The notes under the pieces were generated by a model. The model did not search any database and was not told where the DNA came from. It worked only from the letters and a program-made list of their open reading frames with translations. From a virus: 20,195 nt of DNA. Numbering within the stretch: the stretch's first letter is position 1; each line of letters starts with the position of its first letter. The stretch spans positions 1-20,195 of IMG/VR virus record IMGVR_UViG_3300010883_000692; one strand, 5' to 3'. Position numbers and translations under genes: made by a program. Below are positions 2,538 through 19,757 of the stretch, one piece after another.

Positions 2538-3158
2538 TCACCCCAAATTCTTAACCATATCGCAAATTCCATACTTCTTTGCTTCAGTGGCAGTTAACCA
2601 AACATCATGTGGCGGAAGAAGAACCTCACGAATCTTCTTCTCTGACATTCCAGTACACTTAATATAATGTGCCGTAATCATTCTTGAAGCTATTTCAAAT
2701 CCCTTACTTGCGGTAAGCAACTCATGCTCCTTGCCCCACTTACCCCAGGAATACTGATGTGATAAAATTGAAGTGTTTGGTGTAAGTGTACGATGCCCCC
2801 TCTTCCCTGCCATAAAGATCATCAATGCTGCACTTGAAACTTCACCCAAACCAATCGTATGAATCGGAATACCAGATCCTCGCATTGTATCAATAAGCGC
2901 AAACGCATCTGTCACACTGCCGCCTCCTGAATTTAAAATTAAAGTCAAGTGTTCCGGCTGAGTGGTTGATAAATTATTTTTAAAGATCCACTCAATAACT
3001 GGCTTAACAGAATCGTTCTTGACATCATCCATAATCATCATAACACCAAGTTTTTCTAAAGCATCTTCCCCTCCACCAAAAATTGCACCCAAAACATCGC
3101 TGGGATCTGATGATGATTCTACTGTTTGATCCTCTACAACTTCATCTTTAATTTTCAT
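2538..3158 (-). CDS. clpP: ClpP-like serine protease
   Basis: This is a 206-residue member of the ClpP/crotonase-fold proteases. Aligned by eye with E. coli ClpP, all three catalytic residues are present: Ser109 in GEVSSAA, His134 in SILSHQ, and Asp185 in HDVWLTATEA. The oxyanion segment LNSGGGSV is at about 75-82. The first 40 residues are acidic and Gly-rich and do not match the usual ClpP N-terminus. It sits between gp43 and glutaredoxin with a four-base ATGA overlap with gp43, inside a replication operon rather than beside head genes, so a role as capsid maturation protease is less likely. No ClpX/ClpA-type ATPase is visible here, so it may use a host partner. Confidence 0.9.
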   Translation of the reverse strand: MKIKDEVVEDQTVESSSDPSDVLGAIFGGGEDALEKLGVMMIMDDVKNDSVKPVIEWIFKNNLSTTQPEHLTLILNSGGGSVTDAFALIDTMRGSGIPIHTIGLGEVSSAALMIFMAGKRGHRTLTPNTSILSHQYSWGKWGKEHELLTASKGFEIASRMITAHYIKCTGMSEKKIREVLLPPHDVWLTATEAKKYGICDMVKNLG

Positions 3159-5731
3159 CCAAAAAACCTCTCCAGTGAATTAGTTTGTTCGGGATTCCAC
3201 CCAACACAATCCAACAACACTTTAATAGGGTCAAGAAACGCCTTGACAAATTGTTTATCATAATCAACATAATCGTTCAACCCAAACTCTTTGGGAAGAT
3301 TATTTGGAATAGATATTACAGAATCGTAACTTGGATTTGGCATAATCAAATACAAAAACTTAATCTTATCTCCATCCATAATTCTATGATACTGTTTATC
3401 TAATTTATTCTCCATGATTAACCGATTATATATAATTGAACCCTTTACATGAATTGGAGTATGTTTTATATAGGTGTCTCCATCCGTATATTTTCTGACG
3501 CCGTTGACGCCACGCGGAAATGCAACATCTTCGGCTGGAAGTGAATAAAACTCATTTTTAAACTCCTCAATAAAAGCATGAGCATCACTCTCTTCACCAT
3601 TCATGATAATACTCAAGGCATCTTTAATTTTCTGCCGACAAACTTCTGGAGTAGAAGACTTGACTGCCTCAAGACCCATGACCTTCAGCTTGGGTTCACT
3701 ATAACTTACACCCTCATTATTATAGACGTTCAGAACATATCTCTTCTTTGCCGTCCACAAACCCTTGGATGCAATGACTTCTCGCCCCATTACCATCTTT
3801 TGAGCATACGCATTCATATAATCCGCAAGCTCGTCATAACATTTATCAATATAAGGCTCTAGCTTTTCCGAACAAGCCTTGTCCAAAAATTCCACCACCA
3901 TTTTCGCTTCAGCTTTCTCCACACCCCCACCAAATACCACCTTAACAAGTGGATCGAGATTAACATATATGCTATCAGTATCAGCAGCAAGAATATAATC
4001 CGCATCATCCGTCCCCAAGAGAGTATTCAAATATTTATTCATTTTACTCTCTATCCAACGAATCGAAAGCTGGCCAGCCTTGGTCACTGCTTCCGCAATA
4101 CGAAGATCATAGAACCTGAAATATTGATTGCCTAATGCCCCATAGGCACTATTCAACTGAACTTTTCGAGCAAGCTGATCATTATTGTGCTTGGAAATCA
4201 AATTCAGATACTTCTGCCTTTCTTCTCCCGTTGTACCTTCTGCCAACTGCTGACATTCGAGCATCTTCTTCTTTGAAGACTTTCTTTTATTATAAAGATC
4301 CTCCAAAATCTCAGGAAAAAATCCCTGTGAGTCGCGCTTAAAGAACATGATATTCGGCGTGACCGTAAGATCATCCCGCTTCAACAGTGACGTATCAAAC
4401 TCCTTATCAATGATCTTGTCATAAGAGGCAATGGTATCCCAAGGACCACGTTTCAACGATTTAATAAGATCTTCGTTTACCTTATCCTCTGTAATCAACT
4501 TCTCTGGACTCAGGTTATACTGCATCATCAAATGAGGATACAAAGAGTTCAAATCAAACGAAACTACCCAATTATGAATCCCAACTTGAGGTTCCTTGAC
4601 ATAGGCACCTTCAAACTGAACATCCTTATCAGTATGTTTTCGCGGAGGAATCACGATATTCTTCTTGCGAAGATGGTGATAGCAAAGGCTGTCCCACATA
4701 CGCACCTGCGAAAACACATCGCCCAAATTAACCTTGGCCGAATACGCAAGTGCGACTGCCATCTCAATCAGCTTCATCTTGTTCTCAAGACGATCAACAA
4801 GCTCTACATCTTTTACATTGTACTCAATAAACTTATGGTAATCTCGCTTATACAACGTATGCAAACTACCAAACTCAGAATACGAGAGCTTTCGTTCACC
4901 CAGTTCTACATTTGCAATATAGTCAAGACGATAACTTTCGCGGTTTGTATAAGTAAACTTCTTATACATGTCAAGGTAATCTAGAGTAGCAATACCACTC
5001 AGATCAACATTGATTTGGTCTTGACCAAAACCAGATTTAAACTTTCTTATATAAGCATAATTCCAAGGAGAAAGTCTTCGTGCAGTTTTTTCGTCATGTA
5101 GACGACAAAGACGATTGTAGAGATAGGGAATATCAAATCCGCTTACATTCCACCCTGTAATAATATCAGGCTTATACTCAGCCAAAACATGAAGGAAATT
5201 GTCAAGTAAATCCACTTCACCATCACAAGACACATATACAATCCCGCGAGCTTTAAGAGTATCTTCAATTTTGCAGCCATCAGGTTCTCCATATCCAAAT
5301 ACATAAAATGCATCATTAAATTTAACCGCAATTGAAATAACAGGCGAGGCAGCACTTTCTGCATGAGGAAAACCCTCATCCGACGCAACCTCAATATCAA
5401 TATTGGCAACCACCAACTTATTGAAATCATATTCAATCTCATCAGGATACTCATCACCGATGAAAGTGGATGCAAAGTTATCATTTCCAAAAATCTTATA
5501 GTTGGATACATCCTTATAGCGTTCTATAAAATCCCGAGTCTCACGAATATCACCGGGCTTAATGGAATCGACATTCATACCCTCTAGGGTCTTATACTTT
5601 GATTCTTCTTTGGTAGGAACAAATAGAGTAGGCGAATATCGAACCTTCTTCTGAAAGCGTTCGCCAATATCATCAACACCGCGAAGGAAAATCTGATTCC
5701 CAACGACTTTCACATTTGTATAAAAACTCAT
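3155..5731 (-). CDS. 43: DNA polymerase gp43 (family B)
   Basis: This is the replicative polymerase with 3'-5' proofreading, 858 residues long, slightly shorter than T4 gp43 (898). Exonuclease motifs are IDIE (Asp112, Glu114, the same numbers as in T4), NVSGFD (Asp200) and YNVKD (Asp308). Polymerase motif A is DLNSLYP (Asp393), motif B is NSAYGALGN near 527-535, and motif C is ADTDS near 583-587. The KKRYVLN segment of the thumb is present. The C-terminus ends SLERFFG, which resembles the clamp-binding tail of T4 gp43. All catalytic residues are intact and there is no intron or split. The stop overlaps the ClpP start by four bases. Confidence 0.98.
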   Translation of the reverse strand: MSFYTNVKVVGNQIFLRGVDDIGERFQKKVRYSPTLFVPTKEESKYKTLEGMNVDSIKPGDIRETRDFIERYKDVSNYKIFGNDNFASTFIGDEYPDEIEYDFNKLVVANIDIEVASDEGFPHAESAASPVISIAVKFNDAFYVFGYGEPDGCKIEDTLKARGIVYVSCDGEVDLLDNFLHVLAEYKPDIITGWNVSGFDIPYLYNRLCRLHDEKTARRLSPWNYAYIRKFKSGFGQDQINVDLSGIATLDYLDMYKKFTYTNRESYRLDYIANVELGERKLSYSEFGSLHTLYKRDYHKFIEYNVKDVELVDRLENKMKLIEMAVALAYSAKVNLGDVFSQVRMWDSLCYHHLRKKNIVIPPRKHTDKDVQFEGAYVKEPQVGIHNWVVSFDLNSLYPHLMMQYNLSPEKLITEDKVNEDLIKSLKRGPWDTIASYDKIIDKEFDTSLLKRDDLTVTPNIMFFKRDSQGFFPEILEDLYNKRKSSKKKMLECQQLAEGTTGEERQKYLNLISKHNNDQLARKVQLNSAYGALGNQYFRFYDLRIAEAVTKAGQLSIRWIESKMNKYLNTLLGTDDADYILAADTDSIYVNLDPLVKVVFGGGVEKAEAKMVVEFLDKACSEKLEPYIDKCYDELADYMNAYAQKMVMGREVIASKGLWTAKKRYVLNVYNNEGVSYSEPKLKVMGLEAVKSSTPEVCRQKIKDALSIIMNGEESDAHAFIEEFKNEFYSLPAEDVAFPRGVNGVRKYTDGDTYIKHTPIHVKGSIIYNRLIMENKLDKQYHRIMDGDKIKFLYLIMPNPSYDSVISIPNNLPKEFGLNDYVDYDKQFVKAFLDPIKVLLDCVGWNPEQTNSLERFFG

Positions 5732-5761
5732 AATATATTTCCAACCTTCAATAAAAACTAT

Positions 5762-6157
5762 CTATTTTCGCCACAGTTCAAAATGAACAAGATCCATAAA
5801 GGTCTGATCCTTTAAATCAAAATCTCGATCCCAATCTCCACCCCATCTCAAGGGAATTTCTTTTTCGTGTGCCACGCCTCGGACAAACGATCCAAATGCC
5901 ACAAACCTTTCTCTGTCATTCCAATCAATAGGATAGGGTGCCACATCAACACCAAAAGAAGGATTCAGATTATGACGAGAATTTGGATATTGAACCCGAG
6001 AAAATCCTGTTCGACACAATTCATCCTGCCGGTCTTTGCTTCGATGTCCTTCAAGCACAGTGCAATCATAAACCTTCACAACTTCCATAAACAATTCTTT
6101 AAGACGAGAATCACAAGATGAAAGTTTATTTAAACTTCTCGGACTAAAAGATGCCAT
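5762..6157 (-). CDS. M15-family cell-wall peptidase (endolysin-like)
   Basis: This is probably an L-alanyl-D-glutamate or D-Ala-D-Ala type peptidase acting on peptidoglycan. It has 131 residues, the length of a single M15 domain. Zinc ligands are visible as His62 and Asp71 (SRHN...FGVDVAPY) and His125 (DLVHFEL), with the WGGDW segment typical of phage M15 lysins. The ATG at 6157 is chosen because GAGG lies nine bases upstream; an earlier ATG at 6163 is too close to that site. There is no signal peptide, so it would need a holin or another release route. It lies between hsp20 and gp43, just after a large palindrome, which is an unexpected place for a lysis gene. Confidence 0.9.
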   Translation of the reverse strand: MASFSPRSLNKLSSCDSRLKELFMEVVKVYDCTVLEGHRSKDRQDELCRTGFSRVQYPNSRHNLNPSFGVDVAPYPIDWNDRERFVAFGSFVRGVAHEKEIPLRWGGDWDRDFDLKDQTFMDLVHFELWRK

Positions 6158-6178
6158 TAACATATACCTCACAGATAC

Positions 6179-6206
6179 CAAAGGGGGAGCTATAGCTCCC
6201 CCTTTG
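6179..6206 (-). terminator. Perfect 28-base palindrome, possible terminator or mRNA hairpin
   Basis: The half-site CAAAGGGGGAGCTA is followed by its exact complement, so RNA from either strand can form a GC-rich hairpin of about 12 pairs with a TATA loop. It lies between the hsp20 stop (6224) and the peptidase start (6157). Only a short T run follows on the minus strand, so it may be a partial terminator, an RNA-stability element or a processing site rather than a full intrinsic terminator. Confidence 0.55.
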
Positions 6207-6223
6207 TGAACGGATATTAAGAA

Positions 6224-6703
6224 TTACTCATTCAGAATCTGCGGATCATTCACAGCGCCATTATTCAAAGGAATCTTCCGTGGCTTTGCAGTCTCAGGAA
6301 TTTCATTCCTGAGCAAAACTTTAAGAAAACCATTCTCAAACGTAGCTCCTGTAACAACAATCGTAGGACTCAATGTCCACGCTCGCTTGAAATTGCGCTC
6401 TGCAATTCCCTGATGGAGTAGCTTCTCTCCTCCATCAGAAGCACTATGATCCTTGATCGACTCAATCGTCAGCTTATCATCCTGAACGGTTACTTCAACC
6501 TCTTCCTCCGAAAAGCCAGCAATCGCAAGCTCAATTCGGAACTCAGAGTCATTCACCCTAACAACATTATAAGGCGGATATGTTGGGGCTTGTACTGTTC
6601 CAACACCCGTTGAAATCAGCCGATCAAAAATTTGATCAAACCCAACAAGAAGCGGGTCGTTACGCAGATCGTTAAAAATACTAGTCGGTACTAATCTTGT
6701 CAT
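6224..6703 (-). CDS. Small heat-shock protein Hsp20 (IbpA-like)
   Basis: This is an ATP-independent holdase chaperone that binds unfolding proteins. It has 159 residues with a complete alpha-crystallin domain. YPPYN at about 42-46, GIAERNFKRAWTL at 99-111 and the FENGFLKVLL segment near 122-131 closely resemble bacterial IbpA. The C-terminal KPRKIPL holds the I-x-I/L-like anchoring motif. The ATG at 6703 has an AAGGAG site nine bases upstream; the in-frame ATG at 6727 has none. A strong sigma70-type promoter lies just upstream (6772-6799), so it can be expressed separately from the genes before it. Hsp20 genes are recurrent in marine T4-like phages. Confidence 0.95.
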   Translation of the reverse strand: MTRLVPTSIFNDLRNDPLLVGFDQIFDRLISTGVGTVQAPTYPPYNVVRVNDSEFRIELAIAGFSEEEVEVTVQDDKLTIESIKDHSASDGGEKLLHQGIAERNFKRAWTLSPTIVVTGATFENGFLKVLLRNEIPETAKPRKIPLNNGAVNDPQILNE

Positions 6704-6771
6704 TTTATTTCTCCTTATTATAAGCAAGATTTTTATTCAACAAACCCAAACTTTGGCATTTGTTAAATCAT

Positions 6772-6799
6772 ATTATAGCACGTTTTCACCATTAGTCAA
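6772..6799 (-). promoter_or_regulatory. Sigma70-type promoter for hsp20 and downstream genes
   Basis: On the minus strand the -35 box TTGACT (6799-6794) is followed after 16 bases by the -10 box TATAAT (6777-6772). The -35 box overlaps the last codons of the upstream gene. Its layout and the flanking GTGCTATAATAT match the promoter at 18435-18462. Such near-consensus boxes suit early transcription by unmodified host RNA polymerase. Confidence 0.75.
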
Positions 6800-7407
6800 G
6801 TCTTATCTTCATTTTTTCTAATTTCTTCTGCAACATCCTTTGCAATTAAAGTGAGAGCCCATTTTCCATTATAGGTCATCGGCTTCCCAACTTCATTTGA
6901 CGATTCAAAAGCAAACTTACGACCCTTGACGCGAGAAAAGAATTGGCCCTTTGCATCTCCAAATACTGGTTTACCAACAACCACAGTTTTTGAAAACCCA
7001 GGAAAGGCATCTTCTCTTTTTGATGTTCCTATTAAATAACCAGCCTTCCCATGAGGAATACTTAACACGCTATCTTGATCATAAAGCCGTCCCAACTTAA
7101 CCAAATCTTTTTCTAGTTGGCCATCATCAGAACCTTCGATCTCGTAGTTGGCAACGAAAAAAGATTCTTCGCCGACTTCTCTCTCGTTTTCACTTTTAAA
7201 GTTTTCAATGTAACTACCCTTGACCTTAATCACAGAATAGTTTTTATTAATAAGATAGGCAAGCACCTTTTTATTCCTATCTTTATTTTGAGCCTTCGTC
7301 AAATCTCCACGAAAAGCTGTAACCGCACCAACCGAATACTTTTTAGTCTTTTGGTATATACGATTAAGACTAGCCTCGACGAGACTTTCATGTGCATCTT
7401 CTATCAT
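6796..7407 (-). CDS. Conserved phage protein of unknown function
   Basis: I cannot assign a function. The protein has 203 residues, is mixed charged and soluble, with no membrane segments or catalytic motif that I recognise. The segment KNYSVIKVKGSYIENF followed by EVGEESFFV has the look of a conserved phage/bacterial family in which a short 'tries, tyrosines and glycine' core precedes a second half with DQDSVLSIPHGKAGYLIG. The ATG at 7407 overlaps the RegA stop in an ATGA junction and uses AGGA from the end of regA. The gene ends within the -35 box of the hsp20 promoter. Translational coupling to regA suggests early expression. Confidence 0.85.
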   Translation of the reverse strand: MIEDAHESLVEASLNRIYQKTKKYSVGAVTAFRGDLTKAQNKDRNKKVLAYLINKNYSVIKVKGSYIENFKSENEREVGEESFFVANYEIEGSDDGQLEKDLVKLGRLYDQDSVLSIPHGKAGYLIGTSKREDAFPGFSKTVVVGKPVFGDAKGQFFSRVKGRKFAFESSNEVGKPMTYNGKWALTLIAKDVAEEIRKNEDKT

Positions 7408-7835
7408 TTTTTATTTCCTATATTATACTTGGTAACTAAATTCCAGACACTCTTATCTTTATGTGTAATTATCTTTATCTGACCAATAGGGACCACAGGA
7501 TCGACGCTCTTCTTTGCATCAACTAAACTCAATAAACCCCACTCTGCCAATAAATTCACAATGGTATTTCTACGACCAAGATCGTTTTCACTAAAATTAG
7601 TCACCCTGCCATCTAAAGCAAAAAGCTCCTTAAAATGAACAATATAATATTTGCCGCGCTTGTGCAAAATATGACACGATTGAAATAAGGTATTTTCCTT
7701 GCGACTGGCAATACCAATTCGGGTAAGGGTTTCTCTAATCTTTAGAAAATCTTCATCATCTGTCAATTCAACTTCAGCTAATGAATCTAAGTCAACTGAT
7801 AAATAATCCTCATCATCTTTTTTTTCGTCTCCCAT
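7404..7835 (-). CDS. regA: RegA translational repressor
   Basis: RegA binds near the start codons of many phage early mRNAs and blocks their translation. The match to T4 RegA is strong: DFLKIRETLTRIGIA, QSCHILHKRGKYYIVHFKE and ALDGR are nearly collinear, and the C-terminal KYNIGN corresponds to T4 KYTIGN. The protein here has 143 residues against 122 in T4. The excess is an acidic N-terminal stretch of about 20 residues. The ATG at 7835 is preferred over a GTG at 7847 because GAGGTGG lies nine bases upstream. The gene overlaps the gp62 end by 23 bases and the next gene by four, preserving the T4 order 44-62-regA. Confidence 0.95.
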   Translation of the reverse strand: MGDEKKDDEDYLSVDLDSLAEVELTDDEDFLKIRETLTRIGIASRKENTLFQSCHILHKRGKYYIVHFKELFALDGRVTNFSENDLGRRNTIVNLLAEWGLLSLVDAKKSVDPVVPIGQIKIITHKDKSVWNLVTKYNIGNKK

Positions 7836-8217
7836 TTTGAAGTCCACCTCTCTTCAATCGTTTATGAATAAGAGATAGTTGTTCACCCGTCAACACCTTC
7901 GCAATCTCGTGAGCCTTTTTATAATTACACGAATAATACTCTTTAATCGCATCAATGTCTTCATTCTTTTCGGGCTTCAACCATCTCGAAAACCGCTTAT
8001 TTCTCCTAATACTATTTAGGAGATAATCATTCTGCAAGCGGGTTTCAAGATGCCCCCGAAGGTTAACTTCGTTTGCATGAAGCACTGTGTCCTGAAAATA
8101 AGACAAACTACGATTTACTACAAAGGGCACATATTCCTTTTCTGTTAACGGATCTTCCTCCATTAAATTTTTCTTGCTCACGTTAATTGCTGTAAGAAAA
8201 TCGCCCAACTTTGCCAT
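7813..8217 (-). CDS. 62: Clamp loader small subunit gp62
   Basis: This is the non-ATPase subunit of the clamp loader that, with four gp44 subunits, opens and loads gp45. It has 134 residues, clearly shorter than T4 gp62 (187). Recognition rests on the N-terminal segment FLTAINVSKKNLMEEDP, on PFVVNRSLSYFQDT and LHANEVN, and on its position directly before regA, as in T4. The C-terminus is very basic (HKRLKRGG...GRRKKR). The start overlaps the previous stop by one base (TAATG). The short length is odd but similar short forms are expected in distant T4-likes. Confidence 0.9.
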   Translation of the reverse strand: MAKLGDFLTAINVSKKNLMEEDPLTEKEYVPFVVNRSLSYFQDTVLHANEVNLRGHLETRLQNDYLLNSIRRNKRFSRWLKPEKNEDIDAIKEYYSCNYKKAHEIAKVLTGEQLSLIHKRLKRGGLQNGRRKKR

Positions 8218-8630
8218 TACATGTCTCCTCTGGGCCAGACGATTTCTCGAACTTTTCCAATATGAACAGATGCCCGATCACCTGCCAACTTCGGAACCTC
8301 GTACCAAATCGGAATATCATTCTCTTTTGCAAACTTATGCTCAATCACTGTTCCATGACCATCTTCCCAACCGGGCACAAAGAAGATATAATCACACTTT
8401 GCAATCACTGCAAGATCAGAATCAATCACATCATCATATGTAAGAAGACCCAGATCATATGCCCACTGAAAATTTTCAATAGGCGAAATGACTGAATAGC
8501 CTTTCTTTGTGAAGAGTAGACTATAATATCGCAAAATAACACGATTCTTATCCTGCTCTTTTTGGGGAAGAGTATCCCCATTACTAAACAACCCAGCCAC
8601 ATATACAACAGGTTTATTCACATTGCTCAT
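8217..8630 (-). CDS. DUF4406-like protein (nucleoside deoxyribosyltransferase-like fold)
   Basis: This 137-residue protein resembles the DUF4406 family, which shares a fold with nucleoside 2-deoxyribosyltransferases. It has the N-terminal strand VVYVAGLF, the GYSVISPIENFQW segment, and the signature DLAVIAKCDYIFFVPGWEDGHGTVIEH in which Asp and Glu positions correspond to the active-site region. A role in nucleotide salvage or base modification is possible, but DUF4406 proteins are not characterised in general. The ATG at 8630 was chosen because the protein core begins just after it and GGAG lies 12 bases upstream. It overlaps the previous gene by 17 bases. It is inserted between gp44 and gp62. 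Confidence 0.8.
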   Translation of the reverse strand: MSNVNKPVVYVAGLFSNGDTLPQKEQDKNRVILRYYSLLFTKKGYSVISPIENFQWAYDLGLLTYDDVIDSDLAVIAKCDYIFFVPGWEDGHGTVIEHKFAKENDIPIWYEVPKLAGDRASVHIGKVREIVWPRGDM

Positions 8631-8949
8631 TTTGATACACATCTCCATTTTGTTGCCACTTCTCATCTTCATACGGAGCAATCTGTCTCCGATAAAGTTC
8701 CTGCTTGGCGCACTCAAGTACACCAATCACTGCATTGTACTTTTCGTAATTGGGGTCTTCTAACCAAAAGTCACACAGTCGAGTGATAATATAGTTGAGC
8801 GTTCCGGGGTGATATCCAACACCATGCTCATTTAGATATGCTCCCCGAAAACGACCCAACTTCTCGATAAACTTATCCAAACCATCCATTCCAGTAAAGT
8901 CACTACGACCATCAATCAATTCACGATCTTGTTTGCTAATATACGGCAT
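8614..8949 (-). CDS. Small conserved phage protein (DUF6899-like)
   Basis: The protein has 111 residues and matches, from memory, a small family widespread in phages and often labelled DUF6899. Its features are MPYI at the start, a GTLNYIITRLC core, NAVIGVLECAKQELYRR, and a PYEDEK-x-NGDVY tail. The function is not known. It is soluble and mixed charged, without a nucleotide-binding motif that I can see. It overlaps its upstream neighbour by one base (TAATG) and the DUF4406-like gene by 17. The family name is my recollection and needs a profile search; the gene call itself is safe. Confidence 0.82.
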   Translation of the reverse strand: MPYISKQDRELIDGRSDFTGMDGLDKFIEKLGRFRGAYLNEHGVGYHPGTLNYIITRLCDFWLEDPNYEKYNAVIGVLECAKQELYRRQIAPYEDEKWQQNGDVYQNEQCE

Positions 8950-9188
8950 TAGACTTCTTCCTCCTTCATAAAAAGAATACCACTCTCGGCACTATATCCA
9001 GACGAAAGATACTTCGCCCAATAATCATCAGCAGCCTGAGACGACACAAACGGACCAAACACCTTTGCCATTGGATACATATCAAACTCCACACCCTCAA
9101 AGTCAACGATATAAAAACCAGCCTTTCTCTGAACAACCTGACAATAATTTTCATCTCCCGCCAGCTCAACTGCGAATAATGCCGTCAT
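8949..9188 (-). CDS. Small unknown protein with a GPF-S-x-x-A motif
   Basis: The function is unknown. The protein has 79 residues, is acidic, and ends in an EEEV tail. The core FGPFVSSQAADDYWAKYL has the same pattern as two proteins further right (15523-15774 and 15779-15988): a strand, then GPF, a Ser/Lys turn, and an Ala-rich helix. This could be a small SPOR- or RNA-binding-like beta-alpha unit, though that is inference. The ATG at 9188 has AAGGGAG eight bases upstream. It is the first of three small genes between gp44 and gp62. Confidence 0.75.
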   Translation of the reverse strand: MTALFAVELAGDENYCQVVQRKAGFYIVDFEGVEFDMYPMAKVFGPFVSSQAADDYWAKYLSSGYSAESGILFMKEEEV

Positions 9189-9236: not shown

Positions 9237-10193
9237 TTAACTACTTTTGTACTCCAGGTCTCTCATCAATTCAGTTAAACATGCTACCAAATTCAATTCC
9301 GCGTCGGCTGCAAAAGCAGCTTTATATTGATAATTTCCAAGCAAAATAACTGCCTGCGGAATACTCTGTAGCTTGACGTGACCATACAATCCATCATAAA
9401 TCAAACGAAAGATTCGCGACGGATCGTCATCGAGATTCTCAACCACCCACTTTCGCATGTTCTTGAAGTTCTTCTCCTTCAAGTGCTGCATAAGATTCTT
9501 GATTGACTGTTCCGTGATAGTCGTCAGAATACCTGCATCAATCTCACCCGACACAGAGTATCGCTGCAACTCATTAAGCACTCTACGGAAGTCGGGAAAG
9601 TATTTCATAATCAGTTCAACAAGAACCTTTTCATTATAATCAACCGATTCCTTATTGAGAATTTCAATCACTCGCTTGAGCAAACTCCCCGCAAGGCCGG
9701 GGCGATCCTTCTTGGGAAATCTAAAATCAATAACACTGCACCGACTATGGATCGGTTCAATGATACGATTCTTAAAATTACAAGTAAAGATGAACCCACA
9801 ATTCTTGGAGAACTCTTCAATAAACCCACGAAGTGCAGGTTGAGTGGATTGGGGATTAAGATAATCTGCCTCATCAAGAATGACAATCTTTCGTTTGCCA
9901 GTGGAAGTGATAGAAACACCCGATGCAAAGTTTCGCACATCGTTGCGAAGGGTATCAATGTTGCCACTTTCACTACCATTGATTATAATATAATCAACAC
10001 CCAACTCCTCACAGAGTGCGCGGGCAACGGTAGTCTTTCCTGTGCCAGCGGTGCCAGAAAGAAGAAGATTGGGGATGTCACCATTATCAACAAATTTAAG
10101 AAAAGTATCCTTGAGTCCCTTTGGGAGAATACAATCTTGAATTGTTCGCGGACGATACTTCTGACACCAAATAAAATCATCACGAAGTTCCAT
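9237..10193 (-). CDS. 44: Clamp loader large subunit gp44 (AAA+ ATPase)
   Basis: This is the ATPase subunit of the sliding-clamp loader, 318 residues (T4 gp44 is 319). Walker A GTAGTGKT is at residues 47-54, Walker B ILDEAD at 105-110, and the arginine-finger SRC motif at 150-152. The N-terminal WCQKYRPRTIQD is characteristic of the family. It works with gp62 to load gp45 on primer-template junctions. The start at 10193 uses an AAGGA site about 11 bases upstream. Three small genes separate it from gp62, unlike the contiguous 44-62 order of T4. Confidence 0.97.
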   Translation of the reverse strand: MELRDDFIWCQKYRPRTIQDCILPKGLKDTFLKFVDNGDIPNLLLSGTAGTGKTTVARALCEELGVDYIIINGSESGNIDTLRNDVRNFASGVSITSTGKRKIVILDEADYLNPQSTQPALRGFIEEFSKNCGFIFTCNFKNRIIEPIHSRCSVIDFRFPKKDRPGLAGSLLKRVIEILNKESVDYNEKVLVELIMKYFPDFRRVLNELQRYSVSGEIDAGILTTITEQSIKNLMQHLKEKNFKNMRKWVVENLDDDPSRIFRLIYDGLYGHVKLQSIPQAVILLGNYQYKAAFAADAELNLVACLTELMRDLEYKSS

Positions 10194-14670: not shown

Positions 14671-14886
14671 TTAACTTTCTACGAAATCGGTCATGTAAAA
14701 GATTGCAAAAAGTATTAATAGCACCATCGGTGCCTTCCATGCAGTTGCGAAAAATGTGGCACCTAGCACCAAACAAGCCACCACGTTAGACCATGGCAGT
14801 CGGCGAACTGGTTTTATAGACCGAAGCTCCGCTTCCAGCTCGGCGCGGAGGGATTCGATCACGGCGGCTTGACGCTCTATCTGCAT
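14671..14886 (-). CDS. Small membrane protein with coiled-coil N-terminus
   Basis: The function is unknown. The protein has 71 residues: a short amphipathic stretch ERQAAVIESLRAELEAEL, then two hydrophobic segments (about 34-49 and 53-67) that could form a membrane hairpin. The ATG at 14886 has AGGGGGG seven bases upstream; the alternative ATG at 14907 overlaps the previous stop. The DNA at 14837-14860, coding for the IESLRAEL segment, is identical over 24 bases to 17173-17196 in the large alanine-rich gene. That points to a shared module. It ends 13 bases before tRNA-Leu. Confidence 0.72.
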   Translation of the reverse strand: MQIERQAAVIESLRAELEAELRSIKPVRRLPWSNVVACLVLGATFFATAWKAPMVLLILFAIFYMTDFVES

Positions 14887-14899
14887 GACGAGACCCCCC

Positions 14900-15148
14900 T
14901 CACTCATCGGACTCTACCTCTTTGATTGCTGCTGCGTTGGCTGCGTCGGCTGCGTTGTAGGCTGCTTTGAGGGCTGCGTTGAGGGCTGCGTAGGCTTTAT
15001 TGGCTGCGTCGGCTGCTTTGAGGGCTGCGTAGGCTTTATTGGCTGCGTTGGCTGCGTCGTTGGCTGCGTAGGCTGCGTCGGATGCGTCGAGGGCTGCTTC
15101 GGCTGCCTTGTAGGCTGCGTCGGCTGCGTCTTTGGCTGTTCTACTCAT
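14900..15148 (-). CDS. Alanine-rich repeat protein A
   Basis: The protein has 82 residues, of which about half are alanine, in units such as DAADAA, YKAAEAA and NKAYAALKAA. Spacing of three and four residues gives a heptad-like pattern, so a long helix or coiled coil is likely. It starts MSRTAKDAA and ends KEVESDE, the same ends as its neighbours. The ATG at 15148 overlaps the previous stop by eight bases and uses GAGGGAGAG as ribosome site. It has no membrane segment or catalytic motif. Function unknown; the repeats arise from GGCTGCGT-type DNA units that can change length by slippage. Confidence 0.75.
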   Translation of the reverse strand: MSRTAKDAADAAYKAAEAALDASDAAYAANDAANAANKAYAALKAADAANKAYAALNAALKAAYNAADAANAAAIKEVESDE

Positions 15149-15389
15149 CAGACTCTCCCTCTTCGATGGCTGCTTCGTTGGCTGCTTTGAGGGCTGCGTC
15201 GGCTGCGTCGAGGGCTGCTTCGTAGGCTGCGTAGGCTTCGTCGGCTGCTTCGTAGGCTGCTTCGTAGGTTGCGTCGGCTGCGTTGGCTGCGATGCGGGCT
15301 GCGATGCGGGCTGCGTTGGCTGCGATGCGGGCTGCGATGCGGGCTGCGTTGGCTGCGTTGTTGGCTGCTTCTCTGGCTGTTCTACTCAT
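15141..15389 (-). CDS. Alanine-rich repeat protein B
   Basis: This is a paralogue of the protein at 14900-15148, also 82 residues. It starts MSRTAREAANNAA, runs through NAARIAARIAANAA units, then YEAAYEAADEAYAAYEAA, and ends IEEGESDE. Arginine and isoleucine replace some charged residues of protein A, so the helix faces differ. The start overlaps the stop of a 31-codon gene by eight bases and the end overlaps protein A by eight, using the same junction sequence on both sides. The high alanine content and lack of hydrophobic core suggest a helix that works by oligomerising or by wrapping around a partner. Confidence 0.75.
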   Translation of the reverse strand: MSRTAREAANNAANAARIAARIAANAARIAARIAANAADATYEAAYEAADEAYAAYEAALDAADAALKAANEAAIEEGESDE

Positions 15390-15477
15390 TGGATTCTCCC
15401 TCTTTGATTGCTGCTTCGTTGGCTTCCGTTTCGAGTGGTGATGATGATGATGATCGTGTTCGTTGGTTATTTAACAT
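15382..15477 (-). CDS. 31-aa gene, truncated member of the alanine-rich family
   Basis: A short frame from ATG 15477 encodes 31 residues: MLNNQRTRSSSSSP, then LETEANEAAIKEGESNE. The second half is the conserved C-terminal end of the alanine-rich proteins, joined to an unrelated start with a run of five Ser codons (TCA repeats). It overlaps protein B by eight bases through the same junction as its relatives. An AAGGA lies directly against the ATG, which is a poor spacing, so translation is uncertain. It may be the remnant of a family member that lost its repeat part. Confidence 0.4.
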   Translation of the reverse strand: MLNNQRTRSSSSSPLETEANEAAIKEGESNE

Positions 15478-15522
15478 TCCTTGATCCCGTTTACCAAATG
15501 TTCCGCAGTTTGTCGGCATGTG

Positions 15523-15774
15523 CTATCCTTCCTTTTCATTCAATAATTTTTCTGCAATCTTGAGAGCCTTGACTGTGCTGATATAACCTTTAATCAAAGG
15601 AATCTTTGATATCAATGCCCGTGTAGCTTTTTCCGCATTGGCTTTGTTCTTGAACGGCCCAATGACGTAGCCAGAGGCATTGAGAAATTGAATATACTTC
15701 GGATCTTCATCATACAGCCCGACTTCAAGAACGTGCAGATTCTTCTTCGAGGATGTGTAGCGACCTGGAGACAT
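15523..15774 (-). CDS. Small unknown protein with GPF motif
   Basis: This 83-residue basic protein starts MSPGRYTSSKKN. Its core VIGPFKNKANAEKATRAL repeats the GPF-turn-Ala helix pattern seen in the protein immediately upstream (15779-15988) and in 8949-9188. The C-terminus is Lys-rich and helical (KALKIAEKLLNEKEG). The ATG at 15774 has GGGAG nine bases upstream and lies four bases after the stop of the previous gene; longer in-frame starts run back across that gene and are rejected. The function is unknown; a small beta-alpha fold binding peptidoglycan or nucleic acid is only a guess. Confidence 0.72.
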   Translation of the reverse strand: MSPGRYTSSKKNLHVLEVGLYDEDPKYIQFLNASGYVIGPFKNKANAEKATRALISKIPLIKGYISTVKALKIAEKLLNEKEG

Positions 15775-15778
15775 ATTA

Positions 15779-15988
15779 TTAAGAACTCCCTTTTGTCCAC
15801 TTGTTGGGATGCATAACCATCCGAACCTTGTGAGTCGAAAGCCGATCTCGCCGATCCTCTTCGCAAGTTTCGACATACTCTTCGGCCTTCGTCTTTGACC
15901 CGAAAGGTCCATGAAGAAATACATTGCCATTACCACAATGCGTCTCGACCACATACTTTGCTTTTGCTATAGGGCTATTCTTTTTCAT
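15779..15988 (-). CDS. Small unknown protein, paralogue with GPF motif
   Basis: The protein has 69 residues. Its N-terminal half VVETHCGNGNVFLHGPFGSKTKAEEYVETCEED carries the strand-GPF-SKxKAEE helix pattern shared with the next gene downstream. The C-terminal tail is basic with no hydrophobic segment. The start overlaps the upstream gene in an ATGA junction and the stop lies four bases before the next start. Tandem placement of two proteins with one motif suggests local duplication, after which they diverged strongly. Confidence 0.72.
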   Translation of the reverse strand: MKKNSPIAKAKYVVETHCGNGNVFLHGPFGSKTKAEEYVETCEEDRRDRLSTHKVRMVMHPNKWTKGSS

Positions 15989-16182
15989 ACTCTTTCTTTT
16001 TCCATGATTTCATATACATGCGCGAAGTCCGCCGAGGACAATGCGTACATCCAGTCCGGGAAGCAATCTTCAATATGAATTCCTGTTCCCGTATAATCCG
16101 GGTCGCCATTTTCGTTAGCCGGAAATGTGACACCCGATTCGTCGATCCAACATCCGACTGATTCAAGTTTGAACATCTTCAT
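15985..16182 (-). CDS. Small acidic protein, paralogue of 17769-17963
   Basis: The protein has 65 residues, is acidic, and aligns by eye with the protein at 17769-17963: ESVGCWIDESGVTFPANENGD against HSVGFAIAPDSLLIFPLNQDD, then IHIEDCFPDWMYALSSAD against CHIEEVCDEWFDALSDYD. Shared features are SVG, FPxN, HIE(D/E), a W in the helix and ALS. The function is unknown. The ATG at 16182 has AGGA six bases upstream. It overlaps its downstream neighbour by four bases (ATGA). Confidence 0.75.
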   Translation of the reverse strand: MKMFKLESVGCWIDESGVTFPANENGDPDYTGTGIHIEDCFPDWMYALSSADFAHVYEIMEKERV

Positions 16183-16197
16183 TATATTTCCTGTTCT

Positions 16198-16461
16198 TCA
16201 ATCCCCGATGAATGGTGCTGCACGGCAACATCCATCACATCCATGAACCTTGTCTTCATTTAGAACATCATCAGGATCAGGATGCCCGACTCCGTGCGGG
16301 CAGGTGCGTTCCATGATTCCACGATCTGAGCGCCACAACTGAGGAAAGCTCCGCATGTGATGGTCTGTTAGTTTGTGAATAGGGCAAACATCCCCTTCAC
16401 AATCTTCCTGCGAATGGACGGACAATTTCCCTCCGTGTTCCAGCGTGATAGTTTCCATCAT
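16198..16461 (-). CDS. Cys/His-rich protein, probable zinc binder
   Basis: The protein has 87 residues with seven Cys and eight His. The pieces CEGDVCPIHK, SDHHMRS, CPHGVGHPDPDD and a final HGCDGCC are, as I recall, the hallmark of a small family common in actinobacterial phages, where its role is unknown. Clustered Cys/His ligands suggest one or two structural zinc sites. The ATG overlaps the previous stop by four bases (16461) or could be the next codon (16458); GAGGAG precedes both. If the family match holds, the gene reached this T4-like genome by transfer. Confidence 0.8.
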   Translation of the reverse strand: MMETITLEHGGKLSVHSQEDCEGDVCPIHKLTDHHMRSFPQLWRSDRGIMERTCPHGVGHPDPDDVLNEDKVHGCDGCCRAAPFIGD

Positions 16462-17396
16462 CTCCTCAGTTCTCCTTCTCGTGGGAGTATTAATTCAAAT
16501 TCTATGACAGCACAGCCAAGACCACCAGAAACATCGTACTTTCCAGAGTCCATTGCCTTTTGTGCATCTTCGTCTTTTAAAAACACCGCGCGGGTGCCGT
16601 ACTTTTCATCTTCTATGACATAGACTTTCATACTACTTCTCCACCCCTCCTTCGTCCAGCGACCGGAGCGGGCTTCGCCCCGATCCTTCTCAAGTTCGGC
16701 GCGGAGCTTAGTGTTCGCCTCGGATAGAGTCGTTCGTCGCTCGACAACAACATCCGTCGCCTTGCGTGACATTGCCAACTCCCGCTCGGCCTTCCCGACT
16801 GCGGCGCGGGCTTCTTCGAGTGCTTCGTCGATCACGCATCCGTTGTTGTGCGTCTTGCTTGATTCGTAGGCGTAGCAGTCCGGGCAGCGTCCGTCGTCGT
16901 CCCACTGATGAACGTCGAGCAGAATGACCGCCGCATCGAGCGCGGCGCGGAGTTTGTTGCTCGATACCCGCTCAGCATCAATCATCTTGTTGACTTCTGC
17001 GTGACTCGTTTCGAGACGCTTGACCATGTTGTCAGCCTCATCCCTCTCCAGCTCGGCCTTCTCGGCGCGGGCTTTCTCTACGCCAAGTTGGACAGTAAAT
17101 TCTTTCCATTTCGCATCGTAGTGTCGTATCTCGCCATCCATGCTGGTCCGCTCCGCTGCCAGCTCGTTCTCAAGCTCGGCGCGGAGGGATTCGATCGCTG
17201 CGTCGGCTGCGTCGGCTGCGTCGGCTGCGTAGGCTGCGTCCCTGGCTGCGTAGGCTGCGTCCCTGGCTGCGTCCCTGGCTGCGTCGGCTGCGTTGGCTGC
17301 TTTGTTGGCTGCTTCGTTGGCTGCTTCGTTGGCTGCGTCGGCTGCGTTGGCTGCTTTGTTGGCTGCTTCGGCTGCTTCTCTGGCTGTTCTACTCAT
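16458..17396 (-). CDS. Large alanine-rich coiled-coil protein with Cys motif
   Basis: The protein has 312 residues in four parts. Residues 1-66 are alanine-rich repeats (MSRTAREAAEAANKAAN..., DAARDAAYAARDAAY) like proteins A and B. Residues 67-160 form a coiled coil beginning IESLRAELENEL and rich in Glu, Lys and Arg. Near 165-185 comes a CPDC-x-H-xxxxC-type pattern (GRCPDCYA, THNNGC) that could bind zinc. After another helix, the last 60 residues form a separate domain starting MKVYVIEDEKYGTRAVF. The ATG at 17396 overlaps the previous stop by eight bases through the shared junction; an earlier in-frame start (17429) is not needed. A scaffold or tether is a reasonable guess. Confidence 0.75.
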   Translation of the reverse strand: MSRTAREAAEAANKAANAADAANEAANEAANKAANAADAARDAARDAAYAARDAAYAADAADAADAAIESLRAELENELAAERTSMDGEIRHYDAKWKEFTVQLGVEKARAEKAELERDEADNMVKRLETSHAEVNKMIDAERVSSNKLRAALDAAVILLDVHQWDDDGRCPDCYAYESSKTHNNGCVIDEALEEARAAVGKAERELAMSRKATDVVVERRTTLSEANTKLRAELEKDRGEARSGRWTKEGWRSSMKVYVIEDEKYGTRAVFLKDEDAQKAMDSGKYDVSGGLGCAVIEFELILPREGELRR

Positions 17397-17592
17397 CGGA
17401 CTCTCCCTCTTTGAAGTCACACGCAGCACCAGACTTCAACCAACACTCTTGGATCAGATCGTCGTCCGCGTCGAGCCCGCGCGATAGGTTCCAAGCGTTG
17501 TCGAACGCTTCTGCGTATGCTTCCTGAACTGCCTCTCTGGCAAGAGCCCGAAGATCGGCAATCTCTTTCGCATGTTCTTCTTGTGTTGTCAT
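17389..17592 (-). CDS. Small helical protein ending in the shared GESDE tail
   Basis: The protein has 67 residues, starting MTTQEEHAKEIADLRALAREAVQEAY, predicted helical and amphipathic. Its last residues KEGESDE are those of the alanine-rich proteins, and the stop is eight bases inside the large alanine-rich gene. The ATG at 17592 has GAGGA eight bases upstream, embedded in the end of the preceding gene. The function is unknown. It differs from the alanine-rich proteins in having few repeats, so it may be the parental form from which the tail was copied, or it may have acquired the tail. Confidence 0.72.
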   Translation of the reverse strand: MTTQEEHAKEIADLRALAREAVQEAYAEAFDNAWNLSRGLDADDDLIQECWLKSGAACDFKEGESDE

Positions 17593-18681: not shown

Positions 18682-18734
18682 GACTTGGGGGGTGACTTGG
18701 GGGGTCACATGGGGGGCAACTTGGGGGGTCACAT
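18682..18734 (+). repeat. Four G6 runs at exact 12-base spacing (G-quadruplex candidate)
   Basis: G runs at 18687-18692, 18699-18704, 18711-18716 and 18723-18728 are separated by six-base loops TGACTT, TCACAT and CAACTT. This is a textbook pattern for a G-quadruplex on the plus strand and an i-motif on the other. The 12-base units share the ACTT/ACAT-G6 form. The plus-strand translation is a Gly-Gly-x-x repeat with no credible start, so I read it as non-coding. Confidence 0.75.
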
Positions 18735-18770
18735 GTCGAAAAGCCTTCGCGAATGTCGAAAACCACCATT

Positions 18771-18787: not shown

Positions 18788-18825
18788 GTCGGGAAATTAC
18801 GTCATTTATTATTGCGTTTCCCGAC
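18788..18825 (-). terminator. Stem-loop spanning the stop codon of the HD gene
   Basis: GTCGGGAAA (18788-18796) is an exact complement of TTTCCCGAC (18817-18825), with a 20-base loop that includes the TAA at 18809-18811. No T tract follows on the minus strand, so it is more likely an RNA-protecting hairpin than a full terminator. Confidence 0.4.
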
Positions 18826-19366
18826 GAAATGAAGCCCCCGAAGTCTCCCATGCCACGAGTTCGGCATTGAGCAACTCGCGAATTCCAAGCCCTGCGAATT
18901 CCATCATATCGTGCAGAAATCGAGTTTCTGCCATGAACACTTTCGCGAACTTCCGATCATGTTCAATGATGCTCTTCATGTTCGACAGAAGATCGGCACA
19001 CTTGATTGTCTGAATCATTCCCACACATCGCCCCAACCGCTGAGCCTCTAGGGCTTTCCGTGTTGCTCGATTGTTGATAGGGTCTTCCAGCTTCGTCATT
19101 CCAGCCACATAGTCGCCGACGACCTCCCCGAACTCTTCGCGAATCTCTTCTTCTGTCACAGGAGTATCCTCTACAGTATCATGAAGGAGAGCAGCCGCAT
19201 ATACTTCATCTATTTGCTGCGACTTAGGAGCATGTTCGCGAAGAATGCATAGCACGTCAATCGGATGAACAATATAAGGTTCACCAGTATACTTCCGGAC
19301 TTGACCTTCATGCGCCTTTGTTGCATATGCAAGAGCCCGCGCCACAAGATTTTCTTTATTAATCAC
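18809..19366 (-). CDS. HD-domain phosphohydrolase, RelA/SpoT hydrolase (MESH1) type
   Basis: The protein has 185 residues and is one HD domain. The pattern is that of (p)ppGpp hydrolases: AYATKAHEGQVRKYTGEPYIVHP (His34), AALLHDTVED (His62, Asp63, Glu66-Asp67) and IKCADLLSNM (Asp125), with TKLED between. No synthetase or TGS domain is present, so it is a small alarmone hydrolase-like protein that could lower host ppGpp during infection. The GTG at 19366 has TTGGAG seven bases upstream; reading further upstream enters a neighbouring gene. The 34 bases around the start (19361-19394) are an exact copy of 19674-19707. Confidence 0.88.
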   Translation of the reverse strand: MINKENLVARALAYATKAHEGQVRKYTGEPYIVHPIDVLCILREHAPKSQQIDEVYAAALLHDTVEDTPVTEEEIREEFGEVVGDYVAGMTKLEDPINNRATRKALEAQRLGRCVGMIQTIKCADLLSNMKSIIEHDRKFAKVFMAETRFLHDMMEFAGLGIRELLNAELVAWETSGASFRRETQ

Positions 19367-19394
19367 TTTATACTCCAAATGGATATTCTGTTTT
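19361..19394 (-). repeat. 34-bp direct repeat, copy 1 (start of HD gene)
   Basis: This 34-base segment is identical to 19674-19707. It carries the last codons and TAA of the upstream gene, TTGGAG and the GTG start of the HD gene, so it is a portable stop/ribosome-site/start junction. Confidence 0.85.
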
Positions 19395-19679
19395 AACAAT
19401 GAAGCCCAGTGCTTCTCTCTGTGTCGCATCTGGGCAGCGGAGAATCTGCATCTCTCGCTTATCCAGATTAGGGTCTTGCTGCATGTAATGGCGATCAGGT
19501 CCGCTTTTAAGATAATCACCAAGAGTCTTCCCGACCCAGAATGGAATCACCAATTTTGCTTCATGCCAATATACGGCTCTTGTTGCGAGACAGTCAAATT
19601 CTGACAGATTGTCTAAATTTCGCACAAGATCCGACGCTTCGATTTTATCGTCGATTTCTAATGCGTTTATTTGAATCAC
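19368..19679 (-). CDS. Small unknown protein upstream of the HD gene
   Basis: The protein has 103 residues and I recognise no family. It begins MIQINALEIDDKIEASDLVRNL, has a central AVYWHEAKLVIPFWVGKTLGDYL, and ends KTEYPFGV. Two Trp residues sit in the core and there is no obvious catalytic or membrane motif. The GTG at 19679 is chosen because the same TTGGAG-TATAAA-GTG arrangement starts the HD gene; an ATG at 19715 has no ribosome site and would place the duplicated junction inside the protein. Its stop (19368) lies within copy 1 of the 34-bp repeat, two bases from the HD start. Confidence 0.7.
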   Translation of the reverse strand: MIQINALEIDDKIEASDLVRNLDNLSEFDCLATRAVYWHEAKLVIPFWVGKTLGDYLKSGPDRHYMQQDPNLDKREMQILRCPDATQREALGFIVKTEYPFGV

Positions 19680-19707
19680 TTTATACTCCAAATGGATATT
19701 CTGTTTT
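19674..19707 (-). repeat. 34-bp direct repeat, copy 2 (start of 19368-19679)
   Basis: This is an exact copy of 19361-19394, 313 bases away. Here it supplies the TTGGAG site and GTG start for the small unknown protein. It partly overlaps the first unit of the 31-bp tandem repeat. Confidence 0.85.
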
Positions 19708-19757
19708 GTGTTCATTATAGTGTTCGATATTCTGTTTTGTGTTCATTATAGTGTTCG
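19696..19757 (-). repeat. Perfect tandem 31-bp repeat (two units)
   Basis: 19696-19726 and 19727-19757 are identical. On the minus strand each unit contains ACACTATAATGAACAC, so TATAAT occurs twice at 31-base distance, but no -35 box is found at a proper spacing. It fills the short gap between the edge gene and the next one. Confidence 0.85.

Follow-up and report, generated by a model that had tools for sequence, protein, structure and literature searches.

Alanine-array genes bounded by shared translation-start regions in a T4-like phage: a lineage-specific family with a probable history of duplication and array turnover

Results

Genomic context of the array genes

The window analyzed here, i.e., the whole stretch of DNA, is a 20,195-base virus record that represents a T4-like phage by its gene content. 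Its recognisable gene products include a UvsX-like recombinase, a clamp, a clamp loader, a family B DNA polymerase (~50% identical to those of cyanophages), a Clp protease, Hsp20, a dUTPase and a 2OG oxygenase, and the recognisable genes are all encoded on the same strand as the Ala-rich ORFs. The array-gene region is located on the minus strand, with three tRNA genes on one side and an HD-domain gene on the other (Table 1). The GC content is 62-67% in the arrays and 57-67% in the arrays with the coil, as compared to 42% for the window.

A number of other features were observed in the window. Contig L071 is 97% identical to positions 3626-8754 and 99% identical to positions 8905-9033, while most of the 150 bases at 8755-8904 have no match in this contig. 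A stretch between called genes, at 18682-18735, contains 12-nt repeats (ACTTGGGGGGTG) in tandem, with runs of G. Two adjacent small genes at 15523-15988 have a GPF...A motif in common, and one of these has a relative in contig L230 (56% identical).

Table 1. Coordinates of the array-gene family and of the associated repeats in the window
Feature	Position	Strand	Description
Second start-region repeat, copy 1	19674..19707	-	34 nt, exact; GTG start at 19679; unrelated to the 25-mer
Gene X	19368..19679	-	103 codons from GTG; between the two 34-nt copies; tail KTEYPFGV-stop doubles as start region of the following gene
Second start-region repeat, copy 2	19361..19394	-	34 nt, TTTGGAGTATAAAGTG; start of HD-domain gene 18809-19366
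gE	17389..17592	-	67 codons; non-repeat body; tail CDFKEGESDE-stop carries the gD start signal
Start-region repeat, copy 1	17391..17415	-	TTCAAAGAGGGAGAGTCCGATGAGT; 1 mismatch; 0 in shuffles
gD	16458..17396	-	312 codons; Ala-array head (codons ~6-67), coiled coil, Cys motif, second coil, small C-terminal alpha/beta domain
24-nt exact repeat (IESLRAEL)	17173..17196	-	Directly after the gD array; also at 14837-14860 in the 14671-14907 gene
gC	15382..15519	-	Short chimeric gene by sequence; only last ~13 codons of the family; preferred start 15519
Start-region repeat, copy 2	15384..15408	-	25-mer match
gB	15141..15389	-	82 codons; stand-alone Ala-array gene; 33-bp higher-order repeat
Start-region repeat, copy 3	15143..15167	-	25-mer match
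gA	14900..15148	-	82 codons; stand-alone Ala-array gene; 39-bp higher-order repeat
Start-region repeat, copy 4	14902..14926	-	25-mer match; downstream gene diverges after ATGAGT
14671-14907 gene	14671..14907	-	78 codons, at the fourth junction; 24-nt coil segment, then hydrophobic stretch; no array

Members of the family

The starts of gA and gB, which are of equal length, lie exactly 241 bp apart, and these adjacent paralogues share their ends at the DNA level, supporting the original prediction of a duplicated family in the form of tandem duplication of 241-bp units. The heads of gB and gD are 98% identical over 16 codons, with one 9-bp unit skipped, and those of gA and gD are 87% identical over 18 codons. 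All three ORFs were confirmed, as were the MSRTA starts predicted for them; gD also has a candidate internal start at 16630.

While gC had been described as a member that had shrunk to 31 codons (15382-15477), only its last ~13 codons match the family, and its front, which contains a run of five serine codons, is unrelated. The start at 15519, which gives a gene of 45 codons, is preceded by AAGGA 10 nt upstream; the 31-codon start is without a usable Shine-Dalgarno sequence. Judged from its sequence, gC is a chimera rather than a shrunken family member. The first 24 nt of the gD coil recur exactly in the 14671-14907 gene and gD, therefore, looks like a fusion, or like the source of one.

One start region is shared by four gene junctions

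The 8-base gene overlaps at 14900, 15141, 15382 and 17389 have one 25-nt sequence in common; the junction takes the form ATGAGTAG or ATGAGTGA. The consensus 25-mer, ATCAAAGAGGGAGAGTCCGATGAGT, was found in four minus-strand copies with 1-2 mismatches each and in none of 100 shuffles, and a 27-nt start common to three genes was likewise absent from shuffles. The common ancestry that had been proposed for the gene ends is thus borne out at the DNA level. Read in the frame of the upstream gene, the junction encodes the tail I-K-E-G-E-S-D-E-stop (KEGESDE-stop), and read from its ATG it encodes the M-S-(R-T-A) of the downstream gene. Each junction contains a Shine-Dalgarno sequence, GAGG located 9 nt before the ATG or, in the fourth copy, GAGGT located 8 nt before it. 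A single DNA element thus underlies both the common tail and the common start, namely the Shine-Dalgarno sequence and start of the next gene, read in two frames.

As predicted, GESDE-like tails are present and the genes overlap by 8 bases through a common junction, except that the downstream overlap of the 16458-17396 gene comprises only 4 bases (ATGA). The tails, previously taken as a family trait, are real but are better read as the start signal of the next gene than as a conserved protein end. Two further genes had been overlooked: gE, which is unrelated to the family, carries the tail and overlaps gD at its end by the common 8 bases, and the 14671-14907 gene begins at the fourth junction. 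Since the tail is also found on the differently bodied gE protein and since the fourth junction feeds a gene that has no array, a role of the tail as a protein signal is disfavoured. Searches with junction DNA patterns gave no match in IMG/VR; a single match in genome contigs, in a MAG, was judged to be due to chance.

Units and codons of the arrays

The predicted GGCTGCG-type arrays were confirmed, with periods of 9, 12, 21, 33, 39 and 54, all multiples of three. The array bodies consist of 9- and 12-bp units with a mean of 3.4-3.6 residues each, which is about one helical turn, and the 57 units fall into 26 kinds. Across the three arrays, the Ala codon is determined by its place in the unit, with GCA in 52/52 first places and GCC in 52/56 last places, while the other codons vary; by comparison, Ala codons elsewhere in this phage are mixed (82 GCA, 60 GCT, 41 GCC and 39 GCG). 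Among 23 three-codon units, the non-Ala codon accounts for almost all variation, and does so at its first base (57% minor alleles), with the two Ala third positions varying in 1/46 cells, which are not independent as the units are copied. For the stretches that can be aligned between paralogues, pN (0.28) exceeded pS (0.13), but not significantly (p = 0.21); positive selection on the non-Ala residues of the arrays, as read from these sequences, is a possibility rather than a result.

Each gene also shows its own higher-order period (gA, 39 bp; gB, 33 bp; gD, 54 bp). The longest exact repeated block, compared with unit-order shuffles, was 42 bp in gB (p = 0.0004) and 30 bp in gD (p = 0.05); repeat order in gA was not significant against the same shuffles. 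No multi-unit block was common to two or more of the three arrays. Because of this, the case for common descent of the array bodies rests on their shared ends, their shared codon dialect and partial colinearity. An amphipathic stripe along the helices was supported only in part: clustering of the non-Ala residues on one side exceeded residue shuffles in 3/3 arrays, but exceeded unit shuffles only in gB.

Alanine arrays in other phages

A search for DNA patterns, which is biased towards uniform codons, identified Ala arrays in other viral contigs, several of them in proteins with N-terminal domains of their own. A second sample, which avoids this bias, consisted of homologues picked by the non-array domain of one array protein (n=9). 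These homologues mostly use one Ala codon per place, with a choice that differs between homologues (the pairs GCA-GCC, GCT-GCG, GCC-GCA and GCT-GCT were seen), and their Ala codons outside the arrays are mixed. Two of the nine (L312 and L320) have no real array, and some others are less uniform, with an Ala entropy of up to 0.76 bits. Moreover, contig L171 carries two tandem paralogues (4788-5393 and 5735-6217) with flanks that are 85% and 95% identical at the DNA level and arrays that differ by ~38 codons. Taken together, the codons of the domain-picked homologues and the L171 pair support an array turnover that is faster than that of the flanks, and past turnover by slippage or recombination appears well supported by these comparisons.

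Three Phocaeicola phages, compared for length variation, did not differ in an Ala-rich gene, but their stretches were identical from end to end and this gene is not an array of the type found in the window. A search for Imm5-like proteins in 71 genomes of one bacterial class gave one match.

The same layout with unrelated sequences

Further analysis of the window showed a second start-region repeat, present in two exact copies that bound gene X. At this locus, starts at 19715 and 19522 would give longer ORFs but are unlikely to be the true ones. Gene X is directly preceded, at 19695-19756, by two exact tandem copies of a 31-nt sequence. Contig L174 also carries two copies of an exact 41-nt repeat (8619-8659 and 9347-9387). 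Two successive Ala-array genes have this repeat as their GTG start region, and two different genes end in it with the tail LAPQERRSEGEK-stop.

In a survey of 3.4 Mb, 5/130 repeat pairs enclosed a single gene that has a Shine-Dalgarno start, as against 0.145 expected from random placement; three of these five cases came from loci that were already of interest (two in the window and one in L174, which had been chosen for its array), and ordinary tandem gene duplication also generates such pairs. This was the relaxed version of the survey, and a stricter version, limited to exact repeats and with a stronger low-complexity filter, found only two cases.

Occurrence of the family

Contigs L230-L235, L240, L242 and L243, which show ~76-83% DNA identity in nearby core genes and have the same gene order and tRNA-Leu neighbourhood, formed the syntenic set; the arrays and junctions were absent from the sequence that these contigs comprise beyond tRNA-Leu, and the family was also absent from the relative L149/L150. 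In L231, the same variable region contains a pentapeptide-repeat gene (2831-3403) with ~26 copies of 15-bp units. Among the sequences compared, the family is confined to one lineage. The gD protein gave nothing convincing against IMG/VR and phage records, gB had no match in phage records, and 3.2 Mb of other viral sequence contained no Ala array of the window's form. Matches to array DNA in phage and plasmid records were only of the composition type (e.g., cell-wall anchor repeats) and were rejected.

Predicted structures

The model of gB, made without an alignment, consists of two long helices (residues 3-37 and 42-79; mean pLDDT 77). The single-sequence model of gD (mean pLDDT 71.6, pTM 0.27) comprises a helix (3-85), two coils (90-161 and 188-240) and a C-terminal alpha/beta part of low confidence. 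These models are weak evidence, and the suggestion that the family proteins most likely are helical rods or spacers, accessory and non-essential, is a tentative one.

Discussion

Comparison with known systems

Tandem gene duplication with translational coupling is well known from phage operons, which resemble the window in having short stop/start overlaps and paralogues next to each other. The layout reported here differs from ordinary tandem duplication in that the unit extends from start region to start region and places the same tail on unrelated upstream genes.

The Start-Associated Sequences (SAS) of Cluster K mycobacteriophages are 13 bp long, contain a Shine-Dalgarno core and are found in many copies per genome; they are located just upstream of several unrelated phage genes, and the upstream stop codon can fall inside them (PMC3203893). 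Like SAS, the window repeat has a Shine-Dalgarno core that lies only a few bases from the start codon of several genes. Unlike SAS, which are not tied to repeat arrays, the repeats described here are ~25-34 nt long, occur in 2-4 copies, run into the coding start and bound whole genes. The SAS consensus GGGATAGGAGCCC is not matched by the window sequence, which is GAGGGAGAGTCCGATGAGT.

The Imm5-like / DUF6931 / PHROG 18326 proteins (PF21805, PF22011) resemble the window genes in their xAA/xxAA units, expected helix, uniform Ala codons and occurrence in phages. The window genes share with them the uniform-codon, Ala-rich helical array, with the helix as modelled. By contrast, in these proteins the array follows a conserved N-terminal domain, while gA and gB have nothing but the array and in gD the array is followed by a coil. 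Searches of gA, gB and gD against Pfam, related PHROG families and NCBIfam gave no match to Imm5-like/DUF6931, which the control, the phage protein L167, did match. In the literature on Ala-rich phage repeats, DUF6931 and phage coding minisatellites, nothing on point was found. Of the described parallels, the Imm5-like/DUF6931 Ala arrays and SAS come closest; neither is matched in full by the window.

With regard to gD, deletion-born gene fusions (PMC12803068) are similar, as gD likewise resembles two joined gene parts with a coil segment shared with a separate gene, although the direction here could be the reverse. For a diversity-generating retroelement, no reverse transcriptase was found among the scanned proteins of the window, a 20-kb fragment, and the variation is not adenine-specific. 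The design of duplication bounded by start regions is unusual; within the window, the analysis found neither dedicated variation machinery nor a known function.

Alternative explanations

One alternative is that the GESDE tail represents a selected C-terminal protein signal, e.g., for targeting or degradation, with the overlap being secondary. In line with such a signal, four proteins that differ in their bodies have nearly the same tail, but the conserved DNA does not end at the stop codon; it extends into the start that follows and includes the Shine-Dalgarno sequence. In addition, the same arrangement is found with two unrelated sequences that encode other tails (KTEYPFGV and LAPQERRSEGEK), and the DNA that ends gene X is also present, in another frame, at the start of gene X itself, making a protein signal highly improbable. 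It would be just as surprising if the genes were spurious or called on the wrong strand, with acquired GC-rich repeats opening frames on both strands and no Ala proteins being made. Even though antisense ORFs of 91-168 codons cover the arrays, and the arrays are far more GC-rich than the window, antisense ORFs are expected from stop-free repeats; every Ala ORF has a junction start with a Shine-Dalgarno sequence, the main repeat periods are all multiples of three and the recognisable genes of the window share the strand of the Ala ORFs.

Two other explanations are less improbable but still unlikely. Acquisition of the whole family from another phage, or from a host with GC-rich DNA, rather than local birth, would account for the GC content of the arrays and coil and for the syntenic relatives that are without the family, yet no donor was found in phage or plasmid records or in IMG/VR, and acquisition is compatible with local duplication; we consider it unlikely as the explanation. 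Slightly better placed, though also rather unlikely, is that positive selection acts on the non-Ala residues as an adaptive surface and in this way diversifies the bodies, with duplication only supplying copies. The restriction of variation among the 23 units nearly to the first base of the non-Ala codon, and the near-uniform Ala codons beside varying neighbouring codons in other phages, are in line with such selection, but the excess of pN over pS was not significant and the copied units do not provide independent cells.

A probable duplication bounded by start regions

The explanation that we favour, with a probability of about 0.62, is gene duplication bounded by start regions together with array turnover, giving rise to a small lineage-specific family in a variable accessory region of a T4-like phage. 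Local duplication would have copied a unit that spans from one translation-start region to the next. With the start region (Shine-Dalgarno GAGG/GGAG plus ATGAGT) embedded in the coding end of the gene before it, each new copy would be ready for translation and coupled to its neighbour from the outset, and the upstream gene would in every case acquire the same C-terminal tail as a by-product. The position of the start signal within the upstream tail is a property of the sequence layout, and from it we infer the order of events and coupled translation. Slippage or unequal recombination would then make the arrays longer or shorter and reorder them, with selection maintaining the frame and a long Ala-rich helix, a process that the comparison with other phages supports. 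Finally, gD may represent an array head fused to a coil segment that the 14671-14907 gene also carries, most simply through a deletion that removed a junction, or through the reverse of this event. The UvsX-like recombinase encoded in the window was counted in favour of this explanation.

Seen as a history, duplication, array turnover and fusion seem well supported for a family known here from one genome. The original prediction went further in proposing a system for gene birth and variation, which does not hold: the window encodes no dedicated enzyme or template beyond the normal UvsX recombinase, the nearest relatives are without the family and the 31-codon gene is a chimera. Unequal crossover or slippage, which this system was thought to use, is supported as array turnover by the repeated block of gB and by the length change between conserved flanks in L171, but not as a dedicated system.

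Taking a broader view, and with considerable doubt, this layout might represent a general phage accessory cassette, in which copies of a start region that is also the tail of the previous gene act as bounds, so that homologous recombination could insert or take out just one translatable gene and leave those around it intact; helix arrays of uniform codons would then be one cargo, with a surface under diversifying selection. The layout points to a simple physical means for phages to gain small new genes that are already wired for translation, and it explains why unrelated neighbouring phage proteins can have a common C-terminal tail. Moreover, with uniform Ala codons set beside variable neighbours, one genome is enough for rapid array turnover to be seen.
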